Source: Nitrospira sp. (lineage in GTDB: Bacteria; Nitrospirota; Nitrospiria; Nitrospirales; Nitrospiraceae). Taken from it: a DNA stretch of 36,990 bases. The DNA is taken from positions 1 through 36,990 of the forward strand of contig JAHBWT010000041.1 in NCBI GenBank assembly GCA_019636815.1, given 5' to 3'. Shown piece by piece: positions 6,392 through 19,411 of this stretch. The number at the start of each line of letters is the position of its first letter. Position 1 is the stretch's first letter. A model generated the notes under the pieces. That model was not told where the DNA came from and searched no databases. It was given only the letters and a program-made list of their open reading frames with translations. Made by a program: the position numbers and the translations under genes.

Positions 6392-6485
6392 CCTCTGCAT
6401 GCAGAGGGACTCGGCAAGAGGCCAGAGGACTTTAAGTCCAGAGCCCCTGATCGTCCAGGAGACGGTCAGGGGCTTTTTGTTGTGG
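6392..6485 (+). promoter_or_regulatory. Structured leader with terminator, conserved element copy A
   Basis: A perfect 16-nt palindrome (6392-6407) is followed by GGCCAG (6420-6425), a small GGACT/AGTCC hairpin (6427-6439) and AGAGCCC (6440-6446). Then comes a terminator-like hairpin whose arms AGCCCCTGA (6442-6450) and TCAGGGGCT (6466-6474) are perfectly complementary, a T-run and GTTGTGG. The tonB start lies 24 nt after the T-run, so this is a leader terminator and not an end-of-gene signal. The block GGCCAG-N13/14-AGAGCCC-hairpin-T-run-GTTGTG recurs at 10961 and 17536 before other iron genes. This suggests transcription attenuation; the signal sensed is unknown. Confidence 0.6.
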
Positions 6486-6501: not shown

Positions 6502-7359
6502 ATGGGGTTTGGTCCCAGCATAGCACAAAAGACCGCCAGACTCGGATGGGGCGTTTCCGGTTTCCTGCACGGCATCATTCTGGCTGCGGCAGCCGTTTCC
6601 GTTCAGGTTATGACACCGCAGGCGGTGCCACAACGAGAGCTGTTTCGCTGGGAGGTTTCCCTATCGGCGGCGCCCAGAAGCGAAGCCGTGGTGTCGAATG
6701 GGCTGCAGCGCGCAACTGACGCCTCTGCCTCAGAGGCTCGTTTGCCGGAGGCTCTAGATGTTCCATCTTTGGAGCGGACGGCAGCGTCTCCATTGCGCCT
6801 TGATGAAGAACGACAGTATCCCACTGCATCTGCCGAACATTCAGCGCCTCCGCTCTTCCCATCGTCACGGAGTAGGTCGGTGCAAAATCACTCTCACCAA
6901 CGCACGGCTGTTATGGACGTCGCAAGGCCAGCAGAATCGCTCGTGCCTCCTCCCGAAATCGAAAGTCGGCGAGAATCCAATCACGTCGAAGTCGAAACTC
7001 GGCCGGAACATGTGACGGTTCTTCAACGGCCACAAGCTGTCACCCACGCTCTCGTCAACAGGACCATTCTTCCGGACTACGGATGGCTGAGGGAGACGCT
7101 GCGATCAAGATTGGAAGAAGTCAAACGCTATCCGGCGGGGGCGCGGGCCGTTCACGCGCAAGGCCTCGTGGTCGTCCAAGTTCGTGTGGACGGCGACGGT
7201 TGCCTGAGAGATCCGGAGGTTAAAGAAAGCTCAGGCTCTGCTCTGCTCGATCGCGCAGCCATGGCTGCGGTTCAGGCGGCGTCGCCTCTGGCACTCCGTC
7301 ACCGACTGGAAGGGGCACCGCTGGTGATGCTGGTACCTCTGAGCTATCGCTTGGAATGA
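6502..7359 (+). CDS. TonB-like energy transducer (I)
   Basis: A 285-residue protein with one N-terminal membrane helix (about residues 17-38), a long low-complexity periplasmic linker and a C-terminal TonB domain. The domain runs from LEEVKRYP through VVVQVRVDGDG and ESSGSALLDRAAMAAV to the closing PLSYRLE. TonB proteins pass proton-motive energy from ExbB/ExbD to outer-membrane receptors. ExbB/ExbD are not encoded here. The linker is less proline-rich than in classical TonB. The ECF sigma gene follows after 6 nt, so the two are cotranscribed. Upstream lie a Fur-like box and a leader terminator, which suggests double iron control. A purine stretch (GTGGAAG, about 15 nt upstream) is a modest ribosome binding site. 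Confidence 0.85.
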   Translation: MGFGPSIAQKTARLGWGVSGFLHGIILAAAAVSVQVMTPQAVPQRELFRWEVSLSAAPRSEAVVSNGLQRATDASASEARLPEALDVPSLERTAASPLRLDEERQYPTASAEHSAPPLFPSSRSRSVQNHSHQRTAVMDVARPAESLVPPPEIESRRESNHVEVETRPEHVTVLQRPQAVTHALVNRTILPDYGWLRETLRSRLEEVKRYPAGARAVHAQGLVVVQVRVDGDGCLRDPEVKESSGSALLDRAAMAAVQAASPLALRHRLEGAPLVMLVPLSYRLE

Positions 7360-7365
7360 CGTCGC

Positions 7366-7875
7366 ATGTCTGATCAACGTCTCGCGCTCGAAACCTCCTT
7401 GTTTCAGGGGTACTACCAAGAGATGCTCCGATTCTTGACGGCCAAGCTGGGGTGTCGTGAACAGGCGGCCGATGTGGTGCAAGACACCTTTCTGCGTGTG
7501 CGAGGCGTGAAAGATCTGGAGGCGATCAGCCAGCCGCGAGCGTTTTTGTACAAGACTGCCCTCAACCTTACGGTCGACCTGTTTCGTCGGCGACAGATCC
7601 GATCTGAAAGGACGATTCAACCGGCGGAGATGAACCGGGTGCCGTCCGGGATGCCTCGGCAGGATTGCGAAGTCGAAGCCAAGGAACGTGTGCGGCTGCT
7701 CTATGCCGCGATCGACGACCTGCCGTCGAAATGTCGGCAGGTTTTTTTGCTTCACAAGTTTAAGGGGCTGTCCCATGCTGACATCGCTCAGAGGTTGGGG
7801 ATTTCAAAAAACATGGTGGAGAAACATGTCATGAAGGCGATGGATCGCTGCCGTCGACAAGTTGAAGAGGCCTGA
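7366..7875 (+). CDS. ECF sigma factor, FecI-like (I)
   Basis: A 169-residue sigma-70 family protein with only regions 2 and 4, as in ECF factors. Region 2 includes the core-binding stretch AADVVQDTFLRV (about 34-45). Region 4 includes LPSKCRQVFLLHKFKGLSHADIAQRLGISKNMVEKHV (about 118-155), a helix-turn-helix for the -35 element. FecI-type sigmas are activated through an outer-membrane receptor, TonB and a FecR regulator when a ferri-siderophore binds, and all of those partners are encoded nearby. It lies between tonB I and fecR I, with a short hairpin before fecR. Probable targets are the motif copies at 1686, 9032, 14000 and 19337, though the second sigma in the window could also use them. 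Confidence 0.92.
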   Translation: MSDQRLALETSLFQGYYQEMLRFLTAKLGCREQAADVVQDTFLRVRGVKDLEAISQPRAFLYKTALNLTVDLFRRRQIRSERTIQPAEMNRVPSGMPRQDCEVEAKERVRLLYAAIDDLPSKCRQVFLLHKFKGLSHADIAQRLGISKNMVEKHVMKAMDRCRRQVEEA

Positions 7876-7897: not shown

Positions 7898-7956
7898 AAG
7901 CGCGTCAACGAGATTCGGTGTCAGGGTTCTCACCGTTTCTGCGTCTTAAGTACCAG

Positions 7957-9012
7957 ATGGATATCCCGAAGGCCCTGAAAGTTAAGGAGACAGAGGAGAG
8001 AGGCGCAGAGCAATCCGGATCGGACGGCCGCTCGTCGGCGGCCGAGGAAGCGCTTCATTGGTTCGTGCGGCTGAAGGCCGGCTATATCACGGATGGAGAC
8101 CGAGCCCAATTTCAGGTTTGGTGTGACGGGCAGGTGTTCCGTCGCGATGAGTTCGACAAGCTGACCGAAATCTGGGATGACCTCGACGACATTGGGCCGT
8201 TGCTCGAACGAGAGGTGGATCGGGCGGATGCCAAATCGCAATCGACGGGTCGGCGGTTCTCGGTTCGACCTCAAGGACGCAGAAGCAGCTACGGCTTCTC
8301 GGCAGCGCTGGTGGCTTCACTTCTGGCGGTCGTCGCGGGAGGGTGGTGGTTTGTCGACCGAGCCGAAATCGCCGACTATAGAACGGCCAGAGGCGAGCAG
8401 CGAACGGTCGTACTGCCCGATGGAACCCGAATGGTCTTGAATACGGAAACGGCGGTCACGACCGAAATGTCCATGTTCAAGCGAACGGTCGTGCTGCACC
8501 AAGGCGAAGCCTTGTTCATCGTCACCCATGACGATAGGAAACCCTTCAGAGTCGAAGCAGGCAGCAGAACGGTTCGGGATATTGGCACTCAGTTTACGGT
8601 AAGGCGGGACCACACGCAGGTGACGGTCTCGGTGGTCGAGGGAGTGGTCGAGGTGCAGAGCTCGAACGAGGCAGCATCGGCGAAACAACAGACGACGTTA
8701 ACTGCCGGGGAGCGGGCTTCATACAGCGAGCAGGGAGGACTTTCTTCCATAACGACGGTCGATGTCGCCGCCGTGATGGCCTGGACGACCGGCGACATCG
8801 TCTTCGACCAACGGCCGTTGGCCGAGGTCGTTCAAGAATTCGGACGGTATCATCGGGGAGAGATCCGCGTCCTCGATCCACGATTGAGCGATCGCAAAAT
8901 CAGCGGTCGCTTCAGTCTGCGCGATCGCGAGGCCTTTCTACGGGCCGTGAAAGCGGCCACTCAGGCGAAATCGACCCATGTCGGCGAGAACGTCATCATC
9001 CTGAACGAATAA
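7957..9012 (+). CDS. FecR-family sigma regulator / anti-sigma factor (I)
   Basis: The N-terminal cytoplasmic domain has the FecR_N signature (EEALHWFVRLKAG, then FQVWCD and FDKLTEIWDDLDD). One membrane helix follows (near SAALVASLLAVVAGGWWF). The periplasmic FecR domain includes ARGEQRTVVLPDGTRMVLN, FRVEAGSRTVRDIGTQFTV and VVEGVVEV, and a C-terminal STN-like portion ends in NVIILNE. FecR proteins hold the ECF sigma inactive and relay the receptor signal across the inner membrane. The ATG at 7957 gives 351 residues. A GTG at 7918 would add 13; neither has a clear ribosome binding site, so the start is uncertain. It lies downstream of sigma I and upstream of an ECF-like promoter that serves the second tonB. 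Confidence 0.9.
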   Translation: MDIPKALKVKETEERGAEQSGSDGRSSAAEEALHWFVRLKAGYITDGDRAQFQVWCDGQVFRRDEFDKLTEIWDDLDDIGPLLEREVDRADAKSQSTGRRFSVRPQGRRSSYGFSAALVASLLAVVAGGWWFVDRAEIADYRTARGEQRTVVLPDGTRMVLNTETAVTTEMSMFKRTVVLHQGEALFIVTHDDRKPFRVEAGSRTVRDIGTQFTVRRDHTQVTVSVVEGVVEVQSSNEAASAKQQTTLTAGERASYSEQGGLSSITTVDVAAVMAWTTGDIVFDQRPLAEVVQEFGRYHRGEIRVLDPRLSDRKISGRFSLRDREAFLRAVKAATQAKSTHVGENVIILNE

Positions 9013-9031
9013 AGATTTCTTTCAACGCGCA

Positions 9032-9060
9032 GGTGAGGTTTTTGAAGTCACATTCGTCCT
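9032..9060 (+). promoter_or_regulatory. Putative ECF sigma promoter, copy 2 (upstream of tonB II)
   Basis: GGTGAGGTTT at 9032-9041 and CATTCGTC at 9051-9058 keep the same 19-nt register as the other three copies. The motif lies just after fecR I and about 100 nt before tonB II. It would let the sigma factor encoded just upstream boost its own energy-transduction gene. Confidence 0.6.
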
Positions 9061-9161
9061 CTATATATGACGGGGGAGTGGTCTGTCTCCCGCCTGCTCG
9101 AAACGATTCAGTCTGTGGATAAGGCACCTTCTGTCACGGGTCTGGAGAAAGAAATTCGGCG

Positions 9162-9989
9162 ATGACCATCGGTGAGTTCAACCGGCTGATCCGCATCGAG
9201 AGACGGCATCACGCGCATAGTTGGGCGGCGTCCCTGCTGTATCACGTGATCGGCCTCTCCGGCGCCCTGTTCTTCATGTCCGAGATCGATAAACCGGTCT
9301 TTCTTGACACCTTTCAATGGGAAGTGTCTATGGTAGAGGCGGCGACAACGCAGCAGCCGCCTCCTCTTTCCCCTCCTCCGACACCGGTTCCTCCTCAACC
9401 TCGTCATGTCAAGCGAACAGCCGATCCTCGTCCGCCGGTCGAAACGCTTCAGACGGTACAGCACGCTGATCATGAGATCGTGACGCCGCAGATCCAGACT
9501 CCGGTGGAGACGGCGCAGTCGGCAGATACCCCGCCGGTTGTTGCCCAGGCGGTCACCACCACGCACACCACAGTTGTGGAGCGTGCGGTCGAACAGTCCA
9601 CGGTAGTGCAGGAAGAAGCGTTTGATGTCGGCTCCGACCTGCCGACCGTCGAGCACCGGACCGTCCTGCATCAGGAGGTGCGGTACCGCCGGACCCAAGC
9701 GGACTACGGCTGGCTGCGCGACTTGCTTTGGAAACGAATCGAAGAGTTGAAGCGCTATCCGACATTGGCAAGAGCCAATCACTGGGAGGGCAAAGTCGTC
9801 GTGCAGGCGGTCATCAAAGCGGACGGCACGGTGGGAGCTCTCAGCGTCGCCGAAAGCTCGGGCCATGCGTTGCTGGACGAAGAGGCGTTGGTGGTCATGA
9901 AGAAGGCATCGCCCTTGAGGTTGAAACATCAGTTGGAGACGTCGCAGATTACTATTTTGATTCCAATCAGTTATCGCTTGGAAGGGTAA
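9162..9989 (+). CDS. TonB energy transducer (II)
   Basis: A 275-residue TonB protein with an N-terminal helix (about residues 22-40, SWAASLLYHVIGLSGALFFM) and a classical proline-rich linker (PPPLSPPPTPVPPQP, near 66-80). The C-terminal TonB domain has EELKRYPTLAR, GKVVVQAVIKADG, SGHALLDEEAL and a closing IPISYRLEG. It spans the periplasm and energises outer-membrane receptors. The start is well supported by GGAGAAAG upstream. Its C-terminal domain resembles TonB I closely, so the two probably arose by duplication. Its linker differs, and it sits behind an ECF-like promoter and not a Fur/attenuator leader. The pair may serve different receptors or different induction states. Confidence 0.9.
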   Translation: MTIGEFNRLIRIERRHHAHSWAASLLYHVIGLSGALFFMSEIDKPVFLDTFQWEVSMVEAATTQQPPPLSPPPTPVPPQPRHVKRTADPRPPVETLQTVQHADHEIVTPQIQTPVETAQSADTPPVVAQAVTTTHTTVVERAVEQSTVVQEEAFDVGSDLPTVEHRTVLHQEVRYRRTQADYGWLRDLLWKRIEELKRYPTLARANHWEGKVVVQAVIKADGTVGALSVAESSGHALLDEEALVVMKKASPLRLKHQLETSQITILIPISYRLEG

Positions 9990-10588: not shown

Positions 10589-10747
10589 ATGTCCCGTTGT
10601 TCTTCCGAAGATGTTGTCCTGCTCGTTCGATCCTACGTCAGGTTTTCGCACGCTCGTGCGTTACATCTCCCGTGGATGAGATGCGGTCTCTCCGTATCCG
10701 GCCGAGCGGGTCTCCCGCGCTGTGCCGGGCATGAGGTGAGACGATGA
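10589..10747 (+). CDS. Possible 52-residue leader ORF overlapping the Com-like gene
   Basis: A short frame with a good ribosome binding site (GAGGGAGAAG just upstream) ends in a TGA that overlaps the ATG of the next gene, a typical translational-coupling arrangement. The peptide is basic, with five cysteines (Cys4, Cys32, and others near the end), and resembles nothing I know. It could be a real small protein, a coupling leader or chance. Upstream bases 10502-10588 contain nothing recognisable. Confidence 0.3.
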   Translation: MSRCSSEDVVLLVRSYVRFSHARALHLPWMRCGLSVSGRAGLPRCAGHEVRR

Positions 10748-10929
10748 GCGAGTCGCGCGCACCGTCGGCTTCGAGCTCGGACGTCCGGTGCCATTGCGGG
10801 AAACTGATGGCCCGCTGGCAAGGCGAGAGCCTGGTCATCAAGTGCTCGCGCTGCGGACGGTTCGTTCTGATTCACTCATCGGCCATTACCGGCATACCGC
10901 CTCGCGGAATGACGCCGGGTCCGCGGTAA
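10744..10929 (+). CDS. Com-like zinc-ribbon protein
   Basis: A 61-residue protein whose core reads RCHCGKLMARWQ...LVIKCSRCGRFV. This is the layout of the Com family: two cysteine knuckles around a GKL(L/M) turn and an IKC(P/S)RC second knuckle. Phage Mu Com (about the same length) is a zinc-binding RNA-binding protein that activates mom translation by altering mRNA structure. The first knuckle here is CxC, one residue shorter than the usual CxxC. GAGGTGAG is a strong ribosome binding site. The next element downstream, 31 nt after the stop, is a conserved hairpin leader in front of a TonB-dependent receptor, so an action on that RNA is conceivable. No methylase gene such as mom is nearby. Confidence 0.65.
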   Translation: MSESRAPSASSSDVRCHCGKLMARWQGESLVIKCSRCGRFVLIHSSAITGIPPRGMTPGPR

Positions 10930-10960
10930 CGTCCTTCCACACACAACGATTCTCTAACAA

Positions 10961-11020
10961 GGCCAGCGGATCGTGAATCCAGAGCCCACGGCTGCCACGC
11001 AGTCGGCGGGCTCTTGTTGT
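10961..11020 (+). promoter_or_regulatory. Structured leader with terminator, conserved element copy B
   Basis: GGCCAG (10961-10966), a small GGAT/ATCC hairpin (10968-10980) and AGAGCCC (10981-10987) are followed by an inner GGCTG/CAGTC stem. GGGCTCT (11008-11014) pairs perfectly with AGAGCCC, and TGTTGTG comes next. Sequence, order and spacing match copies A (6420) and C (17536), although the T-run is weaker here. It lies between the Com-like gene and the receptor, about 47-62 nt before the receptor start. Confidence 0.6.
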
Positions 11021-11075
11021 GTTTGGCCCAGAACATCGTCATGAACCGTGATCGGCACAGATGAGAAAGGGACAT

Positions 11076-13835
11076 ATGAGTCGAATCAAGGTCACGCGAG
11101 GAAGGAAGCAGAAGAGAGATAAAGCGGCGATTGCAAGGGTCGCTACGGCATGGAGACAACGGGAAGAGGTGGGCAGGAACTCCTCGACAGGTTGTGTGCT
11201 CTGGGGACTGCTCGTGGGGATGTCCTCGCTCGCCCTCGGCCTCTATCATCCGGCCATGGCGCAGGATGAACCGGGCCGGGACCGTCAGCCGGCGCCACGC
11301 GAGCTGGGGCGAGGTCTCGGACCGTGGAATACATTTCCTCCCGTCAAGCCGGAGTTAAATCCTCTCGATCGTCCTCTCCTGCCGGAGGAGCGCCGGTACC
11401 ATACTCGTGGCGCCGTTGGCCTCATGGTGCAGCAGGAGATGGATGGTCCACCCAAACAACACTTCGAGATTCCTGCCGGCGCGTTGGGCCCGGCCTTGGC
11501 GGTCTTTTCACGCCAGACCGATTTGCAGTTGCTGTATCTCTCCGAGCTCATTGAGGGGCGCACGACACAGGGCGTGCAAGGCGACTATACGCCGGAGGAC
11601 GGACTCAAGACCCTCTTGTCCGGCACCGGATTGCAGTATCAATTTTCTGATTCAAAGACCGTCGTTCTCCAACCGGCCGGCCCATCAGGAGCCGCGAAGC
11701 TGGACCAATCATCGGCGAATCTTGCCGACCAACCGAAGCCGATCAAAGTACCGGAAGTCGTCGTCAAGGACGCCCGAGAACGGCCAACCTGGACCACTCC
11801 AGTGGACGGCTACAAGGTGGACCACGTCTCAACCGTCACGCGCAGCACCATGTCTACCGATGAAGCGCCTACATCAATTGGTGTCGTTACGCGTGATCTG
11901 ATTCGCGACACCTTCGCGCGCACGCAGAACGACGCCTTAGAACACGTGAGCGGTGTGTCTCGAAGTAACACGCTACTAGGGCGAGGAGAGGGAATCGCGA
12001 TCAGAGGATTCGTCGTGAATACTTTCAATGGATCCTTAAACGGTCTGAAAGCCAATGGACTGCCGACTGACGGCGTGTTCGCGCCGGATTGGGGCATCGT
12101 CGAACGTTATGAAATCGTGAAGGGGCCAGCCTCGATCGTCGGCGGTGCGGCCAATCCGGGCGGGATTATTAATCGCATCACGAAGACGCCGCAGCGCTCG
12201 AATTTCACGACGGTAGAAACTAATATCGGTTCGTATGGCTTGTACAGGGGCCTGATCGATGCCAACGGTGTCATGCCGAAGCACGAGCACATTCGCGGTC
12301 GATTGGTCTTCGCCGTCGAAGAGGGCGGCAACTTTGTCGACAACACACCGGTCCGGCAGTACACCGTCGCTCCATCAGTGGAGTTTGACCTCTTCAGAGG
12401 CGCCGGCAAGTTGTTGCTGGTTGGGACGTATCAACATTTCGACGGCGCCAGCTATCCCGGTTGGCCGCTCACGACCGATGGAAACATGCTGAACGTCCCG
12501 CGCACGAGAAACTTTGGCGGCGGAGCGCCCAACGGCGCGCGTACGCAATACACGGGATATAACGGAGAAGTTCATTACAATCATCAATTCATTCATGACA
12601 TCAAACTCTCTATTAAAGGCAAATATTCCAAGTCCGATCTTTCCGACAAGAACATTTACGCATATACCTTCGGTGGTCTTCCGCCAAGTGGAGATACATT
12701 GGTCAGCTCGAGCTTACGGCAGAATCGATTTGATACCTATGCGGGCGAGTTGGTTCTTAGCAAAGAATTCGATCTCTTGGGAAAGAAACACGAAATTCTG
12801 GCCGGCGCCGACCATCGCGACATGACGAACAACTTCCTTCTAGGCTATGCTTATTTGCCGGTTGGACAGGCACCGATTCTCGATAGCGTGTTCAATCCTA
12901 GGAATGTCTTTCGGGCGCCTTCTGATTCGTTTTTGGTCACCCAAGCCAGTGGGCCCTTTCGAGTGGATTTGAAACAAACCGGCGCTTTTGGTCAGGCAAT
13001 CTTCCGCCCATTCGAGCGGCTGACGTTGGTCTTTGCAGGACGGCACGACAGAGCCGAATCGCAACGTCTGCTCAAGGAGAGCGGTGAACTGTTCGACCAG
13101 ACCAAGTCAGGCTGGACGGGCCGTGCTGGCGCCACGGTAAAGATGACATCCTGGATGAATATCTATGCTGGCCTTCAGCAGTCGTTTCAACCACAACCAT
13201 TCTCTCTTACGCGTGATAACCAAATGTTGGAACCGGAAACCGGCATTAATTACGAGGTTGGTGCCAAGTTGAACCTGCTCGACGAGCGACTCCGTCTCAG
13301 CACGGCCTTGTTTCGCACCTATCGTCGCGATGTGGCGACGGTCGATCCAACGGATATTCGATTTACGGTCGCTATCGGGGAACAGCGTCATCAAGGGGTG
13401 GAGTTTGATGTGAACGGCCAGCCGATTCCCGGCCTCAACTTGTCAGCGAACATCACCTATCTTGATGCCAAAATTACCGAAGATAATGATCTGACTCGTA
13501 TCGGGAGCCGTCCGGTCCGAGTGCCACGCTCATACTTCGGGCAGGTGTTCGCGACCTATCAACTTCAATCTGGGCCGTTACAGGGATTCGGGTTCGGTGG
13601 CGGAGTCTATTTTCAAGATGGATTCGAAGTCGGCCTGCCAAACCAATTCAGAACGAATGGATATCAGCGAGTCGATGCAATGCTGTTCTATCGTGGCAAC
13701 AAGCGATATGACGTGACCATCAACATCCGGAACTTACTCAACGAGAAATATATCGAGTTTCCGAACCTTATTCATGGTCAGAACATTTTTGGCGCGCCGA
13801 TCACCGCTGTCGGCAGCGTGCGCGTGTTCTTCTAG
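11076..13835 (+). CDS. TonB-dependent siderophore receptor with STN signalling domain (I)
   Basis: An outer-membrane beta-barrel receptor of about 919 residues. A long basic pre-signal is followed by a hydrophobic signal core (VLWGLLVGMSSLALGLYHPAMA). The STN domain (FEIPAGALGPALAVFSRQTDLQLLYLS ... YTPEDGLKTLLSGTGLQY, about 130-200) contacts FecR in such transducers. The TonB-box region IKVPEVVVKD, the plug (SIGVVTRDLIRD, IAIRGFVVN, IEIVKGPASIVGG-like) and the barrel follow. The C-terminus VGSVRVFF ends in the aromatic residue typical of outer-membrane barrels. ATG 11076 is preferred for its AGAAAGGGA ribosome binding site; ATG 11061 adds five residues. Upstream is leader element B and no ECF motif. 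It probably binds a ferri-siderophore and signals to a FecR/FecI pair; the ligand is unknown. Confidence 0.92.
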   Translation: MSRIKVTRGRKQKRDKAAIARVATAWRQREEVGRNSSTGCVLWGLLVGMSSLALGLYHPAMAQDEPGRDRQPAPRELGRGLGPWNTFPPVKPELNPLDRPLLPEERRYHTRGAVGLMVQQEMDGPPKQHFEIPAGALGPALAVFSRQTDLQLLYLSELIEGRTTQGVQGDYTPEDGLKTLLSGTGLQYQFSDSKTVVLQPAGPSGAAKLDQSSANLADQPKPIKVPEVVVKDARERPTWTTPVDGYKVDHVSTVTRSTMSTDEAPTSIGVVTRDLIRDTFARTQNDALEHVSGVSRSNTLLGRGEGIAIRGFVVNTFNGSLNGLKANGLPTDGVFAPDWGIVERYEIVKGPASIVGGAANPGGIINRITKTPQRSNFTTVETNIGSYGLYRGLIDANGVMPKHEHIRGRLVFAVEEGGNFVDNTPVRQYTVAPSVEFDLFRGAGKLLLVGTYQHFDGASYPGWPLTTDGNMLNVPRTRNFGGGAPNGARTQYTGYNGEVHYNHQFIHDIKLSIKGKYSKSDLSDKNIYAYTFGGLPPSGDTLVSSSLRQNRFDTYAGELVLSKEFDLLGKKHEILAGADHRDMTNNFLLGYAYLPVGQAPILDSVFNPRNVFRAPSDSFLVTQASGPFRVDLKQTGAFGQAIFRPFERLTLVFAGRHDRAESQRLLKESGELFDQTKSGWTGRAGATVKMTSWMNIYAGLQQSFQPQPFSLTRDNQMLEPETGINYEVGAKLNLLDERLRLSTALFRTYRRDVATVDPTDIRFTVAIGEQRHQGVEFDVNGQPIPGLNLSANITYLDAKITEDNDLTRIGSRPVRVPRSYFGQVFATYQLQSGPLQGFGFGGGVYFQDGFEVGLPNQFRTNGYQRVDAMLFYRGNKRYDVTINIRNLLNEKYIEFPNLIHGQNIFGAPITAVGSVRVFF

Positions 13836-13999: not shown

Positions 14000-14028
14000 A
14001 GTGCGGTTTCTGCTTCCTCATTCGTCTA
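14000..14028 (+). promoter_or_regulatory. Putative ECF sigma promoter, copy 3 (upstream of DUF3649-PepSY operon)
   Basis: AGTGCGGTTT at 14000-14009 and CATTCGTCTA at 14019-14028 keep the 19-nt register, with one substitution in the GTGAGG core. The first operon gene starts 40 nt downstream. The preceding gap (13836-13999) holds one imperfectly explained inverted repeat, GTGAGCA/TGCTCAC (13886-13908), without a T-run. Confidence 0.55.
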
Positions 14029-14068
14029 CTTCTTTAAGGCTCCTTTCGGTGGAGTCTGCAATGTAGCG

Positions 14069-17235: not shown

Positions 17236-17535
17236 AGCGAAGATGTCGCTCCGGAAACCCAAATAAAAAAGCACAGTACTTTTTCAAGACAAGAACGGAG
17301 CCTCATCGAACAGGGTACAGTTTACATCTTGTTCTTGACAATGTTCCATTACCGGCACTCTCCAGCCTCTCGGTGTCAGTGGTATCGTTGTCGGCGGGAA
17401 AGACGTGGTCGCCTACCGACACCATAATTGCAGCCTAGAATGGTTGCTGCGGCGATTACATGGGGGTAGACAGAGACAACCCGGGTTTGTAATTATGAGC
17501 GCTCAAATCGGTTTTCATCATCATAGTTTCTGAGC
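17236..17535. other. Intergenic gap before sigma II leader
   Basis: No gene is supported here. A weak AAAAAG/CTTTTT hairpin lies at about 17267-17285 and could end the lipoprotein transcript. On the reverse strand, 17504-17522 reads GATGATGAAAACCGATTTG, matching 12 of 19 positions of the Fur consensus by eye; this is too weak to call but sits where a Fur site would be expected. Confidence 0.3.
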
Positions 17536-17600
17536 GGCCAGCACTGTACAGGTCAGAGCCCACGCTTCTAAGAAGTTGCGTGGGTTTTTTGTTGTGGGGA
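17536..17600 (+). promoter_or_regulatory. Structured leader with terminator, conserved element copy C
   Basis: GGCCAG (17536-17541), 13 nt, and AGAGCCC (17555-17561) are followed by a terminator hairpin with perfect arms CCCACGC (17559-17565) and GCGTGGG (17578-17584), a six-T run and GTTGTGG. The sigma II start lies 23 nt after the T-run. The order matches copies A and B; here the small upstream hairpin is poorly formed. Confidence 0.6.
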
Positions 17601-17612
17601 CCGCATGTACGC

Positions 17613-18128
17613 ATGAACCCGACGTGGCAAGATATCGAGCAGCTGTACCATGAGCATAGGCATGAGCTGTTGCGGTCGCTCATCCGCATCGTGCGATGTG
17701 AGCAGGCTGCAGCGGATTTGGTGCAAGAGACCTACTTGCGACTCGTCAAGCGCGATCAGTCCTGCGCTGTCACCCACCCCCGCGCATTGCTGTTTCGAAC
17801 CGCCACGAACCTGGCGATTGATTATCTTCGCCGAGGGAAATTCGAACAGGCGGGTGGTCATGTGTCGGACTTCGCTTCCGAGACGCCCTCGGGTGCGCCA
17901 TCCGCCGAACGGGTCTTGTTCGACAAGCAACGCGTGCGGATTTTTTCGAACGCCATCGATAGTCTGACTCCTCGCTGTCGAGAGGCCTTTCTATTGCACC
18001 GCGTCCACGGCTGCTCCTACCGAGAAATCGCCGACCGCCTCTCGGTAACGGAAAGCGCGGTCGAAAAACTCATCATGCGGGCCTTGCTCCATTGCCGCAA
18101 CAAACTTCAGCAGCATGATGCGGAATGA
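17613..18128 (+). CDS. ECF sigma factor, FecI-like (II)
   Basis: A 171-residue two-domain ECF sigma. Region 2 contains AAADLVQETYLRLV (about 32-45). Region 4 contains LTPRCREAFLLHRVHGCSYREIADRLSVTESAVEKLIMRAL (about 118-158). It is of the same iron-starvation type as sigma I but clearly divergent, so not a recent duplicate. The ATG at 17613 overlaps the stop of a three-codon frame (ATGTACGCATGA), which might couple translation; GGGGA lies about 12 nt upstream. fecR II follows after 56 nt and a receptor after that, giving a complete sigma-FecR-receptor set. Leader element C immediately precedes it, suggesting attenuated expression. Confidence 0.92.
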   Translation: MNPTWQDIEQLYHEHRHELLRSLIRIVRCEQAAADLVQETYLRLVKRDQSCAVTHPRALLFRTATNLAIDYLRRGKFEQAGGHVSDFASETPSGAPSAERVLFDKQRVRIFSNAIDSLTPRCREAFLLHRVHGCSYREIADRLSVTESAVEKLIMRALLHCRNKLQQHDAE

Positions 18129-18184: not shown

Positions 18185-19213
18185 ATGCCGTTGCCCGGTC
18201 GGACAGTGGTCATGCCCGACTCAAATCAACAGCCCTTCCTCCCTGCGATGTCTGCCCCTGCCGCTTCACACTCTGAGGAAGCGATGGCTTGGTTCGCACG
18301 CCTCCGGTCTGAGCGCTGTTCTCCTGACGAACAGCAAGCTTTTGAATCGTGGCGAAACCAGACCCCTTCTCATGCCCGAGCCTATGAGGAAGTCTTGGCG
18401 CTCTGGGATGATCCGGATTTACGAGAAGCGGCAAACGAGGCCGCTCTTGCTTTGCCGCGGTCGGAACCAGGTGCGGCCGTCCGTTTCCGGCCGCAGATTC
18501 AGGTGCGGCAGTTCATGATTGCGGCCATGATCGCAGGACTGGTTGTTCTGACTGGCCTACAATTGGACCTTCCGGTCCGATTGCTATCGGATCACAGCAC
18601 GTCGACGGGAGAACAGCGCGTCGTGACATTATCCGATCACTCAACCGTTACGCTGAATGCACAAAGCGCGATCGACGAGGCATTTGACGACTCGACTCGC
18701 CGCGTGCGCTTGCTCAAAGGAGAAGCGTTTTTCCAGGTGGCCCATAATGAGCTCAAGCCATTTGTGGTAGACAGCGGTGCGATTACTGCGCGCGCGGTGG
18801 GGACGGCGTTTGTCGTCCGGCAAGAATCAAACGGCATCCGAGTGACGGTTACCGAGGGTGTGGTGGAACTGGCACCCCTCCAGCCGGCTTGGCCATCGTT
18901 ACGGTTGACGGTGGGTCAACAAGTGTCTGTCACGACGGAGAGAGTGAGCCCTGTTCAAGGAGTAGATCCCAGTCAAGCCACCGCATGGCTGAGGGGTCGC
19001 CTGGTCGTCGACAATGTCCGGTTTGGAGATGTCATCGACGAACTCCGCAGATATTATCCAGGCACGATCCTGATCTGGAATAGTGCGATGAATGAAATTC
19101 GTGTCAGCGGCAATTACAATATCGCCGATCCCGCCGCGATGCTGATCGCACTCAACGAAACCCTTCCGGTCAATATGGCGAAAATGTCCGATCGTATCGT
19201 CATCTTCTTCTAG
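18185..19213 (+). CDS. FecR-family sigma regulator / anti-sigma factor (II)
   Basis: A 342-residue FecR protein. The cytoplasmic FecR_N region (SEEAMAWFARLRSERCSPDEQQAFESW) is followed by a membrane helix (about residues 110-128, MIAAMIAGLVVLTGLQL). The periplasmic FecR domain includes STGEQRVVTLSDHSTVTLN, VRLLKGEAFFQV, ITARAVGTAFVV and VTEGVVELA. The C-terminal STN-like region ends in DRIVIFF. It should bind sigma II in the cytoplasm and the STN domain of receptor II in the periplasm. The longest start (18185) is given; ATG 18212 is possible. The gene is followed by an ECF-like promoter and then receptor II. Confidence 0.9.
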   Translation: MPLPGRTVVMPDSNQQPFLPAMSAPAASHSEEAMAWFARLRSERCSPDEQQAFESWRNQTPSHARAYEEVLALWDDPDLREAANEAALALPRSEPGAAVRFRPQIQVRQFMIAAMIAGLVVLTGLQLDLPVRLLSDHSTSTGEQRVVTLSDHSTVTLNAQSAIDEAFDDSTRRVRLLKGEAFFQVAHNELKPFVVDSGAITARAVGTAFVVRQESNGIRVTVTEGVVELAPLQPAWPSLRLTVGQQVSVTTERVSPVQGVDPSQATAWLRGRLVVDNVRFGDVIDELRRYYPGTILIWNSAMNEIRVSGNYNIADPAAMLIALNETLPVNMAKMSDRIVIFF

Positions 19214-19336: not shown

Positions 19337-19365
19337 TGTGAGGTCTCGGTTCACTCCTTCGTCTA
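19337..19365 (+). promoter_or_regulatory. Putative ECF sigma promoter, copy 4 (upstream of receptor II)
   Basis: TGTGAGGTCT at 19337-19346 and CCTTCGTCTA at 19356-19365 again begin 19 nt apart. The receptor start lies 46 nt downstream, the same distance as at the RND pump. Confidence 0.6.
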
Positions 19366-19411
19366 TGGATGGCAGGCCGCTTGCGGACATCTAGGTAACG
19401 GAGGGACACGC

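Follow-up and report, generated by a model that had tools for sequence, protein, structure and literature searches.

The window, that is, the whole stretch of 36,990 nt of Nitrospira sp. DNA that was analysed, carries on its forward strand an ATG-initiated ORF for a Com-like zinc-ribbon protein of 61 aa (10744-10929), found in the ORF list and among the profile matches, with the cysteine arrangement CxC...CxxC (RCHCGKL...KCSRC) and an SD-like purine-rich stretch ahead of it at 10733-10738. The first-pass annotation had described this protein, placed its end 31 nt before a structured RNA element termed B and put a receptor gene behind that element, and all of this was borne out: the ORF is present, 31 nt separate the last base of its stop codon (10929) from the GGCC at 10961 with which element B starts, and the forward-strand gene at 11061-13835 (start possibly at 11076) contains the Pfam domains STN, Plug and TonB_dep_Rec of a TonB-dependent receptor. 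Element B is composed of a hairpin (10961-10986, forward strand), in which an internal loop (CAGC/AGA) separates P1 (GGC/GCC) from P2 (GGAT/ATCC), and a terminator-like stem (10981-11014, forward strand), whose 5′ arm, AGAGCCC, overlaps the 3′ arm of the hairpin and whose U tract (TTGTTGTG) is weak. Folded in isolation, the hairpin formed both P1 and P2 at -5.3 kcal/mol, and the R1 covariance model matched the element at 10954-11022 with 51.2 bits.

Two further forward-strand elements, A (6420-6484) and C (17536-17596), share with B (10961-11022) the sequence GGCCAG-N-CAGAGCCC followed by a terminator-like hairpin. The hairpin of element A (6420-6445) folded in isolation at -8.1 kcal/mol with P1 and P2, and its terminator (6440-6484) is followed 17 nt on by the next start codon (6502); the covariance match spans 6413-6484 with 71.6 bits. 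The forward-strand ORF that starts there (6502-7359) is labelled tonB-like from its position and from the likeness of its 3′-end DNA to the second tonB, and it heads a series that continues with FecI (7366-7875) and with FecR and TonB (7918-9989). Element C is divergent, with a hairpin region (17536-17560) whose isolated fold lacks P1 and P2, followed by a terminator (17555-17596) and covered by a covariance match at 17529-17596 with 49.8 bits. Behind it lie a forward-strand fecI-like sigma factor gene (17613-18128), recognised by DNA likeness to the first fecI and drawn from an in-frame ATG at 17613 picked by eye, the listed ORF beginning at 17580, and then fecR (18185-19213).

The surroundings in the window are those of a FecI/FecR/TonB/TonB-dependent receptor cluster, not those of a prophage. 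A prophage remnant was considered and rejected, since no phage or methyltransferase genes were found among the scanned neighbours and the element was unsupported in viral contigs, where none of 58 element pattern matches fitted the covariance model. Separately, four copies of GTGAGGTTT-N-CATTCGTCTACT were noticed in the window, at 1687-1716, 9033-9062, 14001-14030 and 19338-19367, upstream of HlyD, TonB, DUF3649/PepSY and second receptor genes, respectively; we take their spacing and CGTC core to resemble those of ECF (FecI-type) promoters.

When the 4.0-Mb source genome was searched with the pattern GGCCAGN{6,22}CAGAGCCC, four matches were obtained, all reported forward, three of them in the window and one beside a second Com gene, and the reversed-pattern control gave 0 and 2 matches in the same genome. 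A covariance model search retrieved five element copies at E <= 1e-8. The element pattern thus exceeds chance in this genome. The fifth element (G000:C66:19203-19272, reverse strand; L168) is on a contig with no Com match and lies ahead of a small zinc-ribbon-like ORF that contains two CxxC pairs (MTSNCRRCGG...) and is by eye unrelated to Com. Two clear Com-like genes are present in the source genome, the second (G000:C16) with an element 24 nt behind it. The Com search gave two further hits there, L005 (E 0.003) and L006 (E 0.44), both dismissed as chance matches; L005 falls within a long sensor-kinase-like ORF.

Relationship of the window protein to phage Com was assessed by several profile comparisons. 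Against Pfam PF10122 (Com) it scored 21.4 bits (E 1.8e-4), narrowly below the curated cut-off of 22.9 bits, and 8 of 16 relatives matched the same model at E <= 0.1; PHROG 6417, 'translational regulator', matched it at E 8.6e-5. Aligning 18 Nitrospirota rows with five phage Com rows by hhalign gave a probability of 95 (E 3.8e-8) over 33 columns in the zinc knuckle region. Four cysteines are invariant, and the first knuckle is C-x-C in all 18 Nitrospirota rows versus C-x2-C in the five phage Coms, so that none of the 18 has the phage-type spacing. Because it falls short of the Pfam cut-off and lacks the CxxC knuckle, the window protein is not filed as a Com member; it most likely works like Com all the same. 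Its AlphaFold model has a mean pLDDT of 74.9, and Foldseek returned no PDB match at E <= 0.001 (rank 2 was an aIF2-beta zinc ribbon, E 0.77), so the fold comparison adds little. A PDB sequence search with the Com-like profile was uninformative, with a best E of 0.02. Profile search of genome contigs with the Com protein alignment found 164 relatives in 174 stretches, and among the best 80 of these 164, 79 were titled Nitrospira or other Nitrospirota and one was titled uncultured Nitrosospira. The phage Com genes that we fetched (Mu, B3, AP3, Smp131) precede mom or methyltransferases; no mom or DNA methyltransferase was found next to the Com-like gene in the window or in the scanned loci, where uptake genes are located instead.

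Rfam release 15 has no counterpart of the RNA family to which elements A, B and C belong: no Rfam 15 model matched in the window at gathering score, and a permissive search around element A returned chance-level matches only. The general layout is a P1 of GGC/GCC, an internal loop of CAGA/NGA and a P2 of about 4 bp, and the 3′ arm of this hairpin doubles as the 5′ arm of an inhibitory structure that is stronger. In most cases this structure is an intrinsic terminator located a few nt ahead of a start codon; in porin leaders it is a predicted stem with codons of the porin gene itself, around the ribosome-binding site. This overlap of hairpin 3′ arm and terminator 5′ arm, which characterises RAT-type antiterminators, was found in A, in B and in the alignment consensus. 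Many more elements came from related loci. An alignment of 29 elements folds as P2 (4 bp) plus a terminator stem of 15 bp, and of the 19 pairs in these two stems 10 have changes on both sides; P1 is missing from the consensus fold because its 3′ arm belongs to the terminator 5′ arm, and the isolated hairpins of A and B do form P1, a 4 x 3 internal loop and P2. The middle pair of canonical P1 is G-C in 81 of 89 rows and mismatched in 7, a count that leaves 3 of 92 rows unmatched and uses a pattern presupposing G and C at the outer P1 positions. Position relative to genes was scored for 86 elements (92 plus-strand R1 matches minus five weak hits and one truncated by a contig end), and an ORF of at least 90 aa begins within 250 nt of 78 of them, and within 60 nt of 64. 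Mean folding energy was -6.3 kcal/mol for isolated hairpins versus -25.7 kcal/mol for terminators, calculated from 78 of the 85 distinct sequences. A kink-turn was considered for the internal loop by eye and set aside, as the A/G and A/C variation of the loop does not fit.

The sequence around P2 can be compared with the known RNA site of Com. As published for Mu Com, the 62-aa protein binds a hairpin beside a translation-inhibition structure of the mom mRNA and activates translation, SELEX with a Com zinc finger yielded a core of GAG(N)2CC, often present twice around a stem of 3-4 nt, and the proposed site is CC(N)2-3GAG with a crucial GA dinucleotide (PMC6483171). Of 85 distinct elements of the present family, 75 have CC-N-GAG 3′ of the short stem and 53 have it 5′ of the stem, compared with 7.5% in shuffled sequences. 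This is close to the Com SELEX site, differing in a spacer of 1 nt instead of 2-3 nt, which may reflect the diverged protein.

The first-pass annotation had also suggested a genome survey for co-occurrence, and held that an element widespread in genomes without the Com-like gene would speak against a link between the two. Such a survey of 295 genomes of the phylum revealed strong coupling, with 92 genomes having both Com and element, 16 Com only, 6 the element only and 181 neither (Com in 108, element in 98; Fisher p 2e-51, phylogeny ignored). Far from being widespread without Com, the element was seen in 6 of 187 genomes lacking a Com match. In a set of 78 relatives, Com was found in 57, the element in 56 and both in 52. 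Com followed by an element was also observed in other families of the phylum (G083, G202, G234, G266, G284, G219, G225, G302). At the level of loci, proximity was scored over the 150 rows listed for Com and for the element alike: 128 of these elements have a listed Com no more than 10 kb away, in 127 cases on the same strand, and the other 22 have none within that distance. The distances peak at about +3.35 kb, which is the product of one conserved gene order and hence not independent evidence. As a control, 128 TonB receptor barrels were located in 18 genomes: an element lies within 8 kb on the same strand for 21 of 24 receptors with Com within 15 kb, versus 5 of 104 receptors without. Elements thus track Com rather than TonB receptors, and with the survey and this control the Com-element link is no longer just positional in one genome.

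Exceptions to the pairing were inspected individually. Nine genomes of the two surveys have an element and no Com match (G013, G018, G019, G026, G133, G176, G263, G266, G276), and an explanation is available for three of the six element-only genomes among the 295: G018 and G176 have a run of 100 N (an assembly gap or a withheld stretch) upstream of the porin gene, the usual place of Com, and G266 has a sub-threshold Com-like ORF (E 0.0016) 17 nt ahead of the element. The elements of G013, G019 and G026 are near a contig end, so that the usual Com position falls off the contig, and G133, G263 and G276 have weak element matches and no explanation for the missing Com. A search for the Com-like pattern over 20 loci found none in the loci of Com-negative genomes. 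On the other side, 5 of the 16 Com-only genomes (G082, G224, G253, G269, G285) have CxxC-type proteins, at least three (G221, G295, G315) show by eye a terminatorless hairpin, and the remaining ones are without explanation; 25 of 84 Com genes have no element in the next 130 nt downstream. Some other Nitrospirota (L209, L212, L215) have phage-like small proteins of the CxxC Com type, and the best element match behind these reaches just 15.5 bits, so that the element seems to accompany the CxC type. In several genomes, runs of N are found again and again where Com and porin genes meet, ahead of the porin gene in L159 and L160 and behind a porin-type hairpin in L033 and L059, perhaps because tandem copies of the locus break assemblies.

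A second Com subfamily is followed by a variant hairpin, GACCAGAGACC...GAGTCCCGAGTC, with no terminator and ahead of a porin gene, whose identity rests on a match to the phosphate-selective porin family by the product scanned in one locus. Porin-type P1 is GAC/GTC or GGC/GTC, its middle pair being A-U in 14 and G-U in 5 of 19 distinct hairpins. A CTCGGGGCTC-like partner for the hairpin arm is kept in all 43 porin leaders, and in all 43 the 3′ arm of the hairpin can pair with codons ~7-10 of the porin gene, forming a predicted inhibitory stem around the start region. The codons concerned show synonymous constraint: codons 7-9 are Leu CTC in 37 of 39, Gly GGG in 39 of 39 and Ala GCT in 35 of 38 rows, counts affected by wrong start codon assignment for a few of the 43. 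Leu 15, by contrast, uses at least four codons and Ala 22 all four. The outer stem is paired in 99.5% of alignment cells and has no two-sided changes. One of four porin leaders folded (L102) had another minimum-energy fold, in which the SD-like stretch is paired with the same codons. Such a start-region structure is inapplicable to element B, which is of the terminator type.

Other arrangements were noted in passing. In L170, L171 and L172, from other families, com is followed by two tandem elements, of which the one has a terminator and the other immediately precedes the Shine-Dalgarno sequence of a porin-like gene, an arrangement of two switches in series; an ApbE-like gene follows in L170 and L172. 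In a third Com subfamily (L052 10647 and 10963; L056 12996 and 13322), com is flanked by an element ahead of it and a hairpin behind it, and an AraC-like regulator and an exporter operon of the HlyD/MacB type lie downstream, a layout that hints at autoregulation.

Taken together, we put the probability at about two in three that the Com-like protein and the elements together make up a single riboregulatory system of the chromosome, in which binding would relieve the blocks. The action of a Com protein on the leader elements, as the first-pass annotation had proposed, is in this sense supported but not proven. The antiterminator-like layout, the translational version and the likeness to the SELEX-defined Com site go beyond what that annotation described. 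With no protein bound, the inhibitory structure would prevail and transcription would stop or translation would be blocked. The hairpins are weak and the terminators strong, so the default should be off and a binder would be needed to tip the balance. The Com-like protein would bind the nascent hairpin at its CC-N-GAG repeats and hold it together, and transcription or translation of the uptake genes could then proceed, the putative targets including genes for TonB, TonB-dependent receptor, FecI, porin, an HD-domain protein and a PepSY protein. Since com lies directly ahead of element B, expression of the receptor may be gated by the dose of Com from the same transcript, and control of elements A and C would be exerted in trans. 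The driving signal may be zinc, iron or the dosage of Com. The proposed logic is that of RAT antitermination and of com-mom. A wider reading, which we hold with less confidence while still judging it more likely than not, is that a diverged Com-type zinc ribbon serves a Nitrospirota regulon as a general RNA switch-binder. One hairpin code, the CC-N-GAG repeats around a short stem, would then be used for antitermination before TonB, FecI, receptor and HD-domain genes and for translation activation before porin genes, with Com made from within operons under its own control.

Three other explanations of the same features were weighed. The layout, in which a conserved hairpin of small size overlaps a terminator ahead of transport genes, is that of a riboswitch, and the elements could be small-molecule or metal riboswitches with expression platforms, the Com-like genes merely belonging to the same regulon or neighbourhood, as the 22 of 150 listed elements with no listed Com within 10 kb might suggest. 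Set against this are the coupling to Com at genome level (92/16/6/181), the rarity of elements at receptors without Com nearby (5 of 104), the resemblance of the repeats to the known Com site together with the lack of an Rfam match, and a variable P2 loop that leaves few invariant letters for a ligand pocket, and we consider this explanation unlikely. Alternatively, each element might be no more than an intrinsic terminator of the usual kind for the transcript ahead of it (for B, that of com), with a conserved flank of unrelated role. Element B does lie between com and the receptor gene and the terminator stems are strong, but for 64 of 86 elements the next start codon is no more than 60 nt away, P2 shows covariation separate from that of the terminator, and the hairpin persists without a terminator in the 43 porin leaders, with P1 pair changes of its own, all of which makes this very improbable.

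The remaining explanation accepts binding and reverses its outcome: the Com-like protein would repress, favouring termination or blocking initiation, for example closing uptake operons when metal-loaded. It draws on the same co-occurrence and site evidence, on the four cysteines of a zinc module in the protein and on the uptake function of the genes. The hairpin and the inhibitory stem share an arm, however, hence stabilising the hairpin should relieve inhibition, and Mu Com is an activator (PMC6483171). Repression is therefore, in our estimation, slightly less likely still than the riboswitch, and relief of the inhibitory structures by a bound Com-like protein is the reading that we prefer.

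No earlier description of a Com-element system in Nitrospira was found in the portion of the literature searched for it. The wider reading, if true, would make this a new class of antitermination that depends on a protein, and the first case of a Com system with a role other than phage DNA modification. What has been a phage Mu curiosity would become a conserved bacterial mode of gene control; the RNA family would be an addition to those in Rfam release 15, and nutrient uptake in nitrifying Nitrospira would come under a defined post-initiation control. As many natural hairpin variants occur beside their likely cognate proteins, RNA recognition by Com becomes testable.

Compared with com-mom of phage Mu, the Nitrospirota arrangement likewise has a zinc protein of ~60 aa whose gene immediately precedes a putative target gene. 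The hairpin that it would bind carries CC and GAG blocks and adjoins an RNA structure that would inhibit expression, and the porin leaders have the start region held inside a predicted inhibitory stem. The Nitrospirota arrangement differs in being chromosomal and kept across the phylum, in having many putative targets, in the CxC first knuckle and CC-N1-GAG spacing, and in that most targets are transcription terminators, not translation blocks. BglG, SacY and LicT act on RAT hairpins that overlap the 5′ arm of a terminator, and stabilisation of the hairpin by the protein leads to antitermination; the overlap logic is the same here, whereas protein family, RNA sequence and RNA structure are different. 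Transcription-terminating riboswitches are alike in leader position and in their mutually exclusive structures, but in Nitrospirota a candidate protein partner co-occurs with the element.
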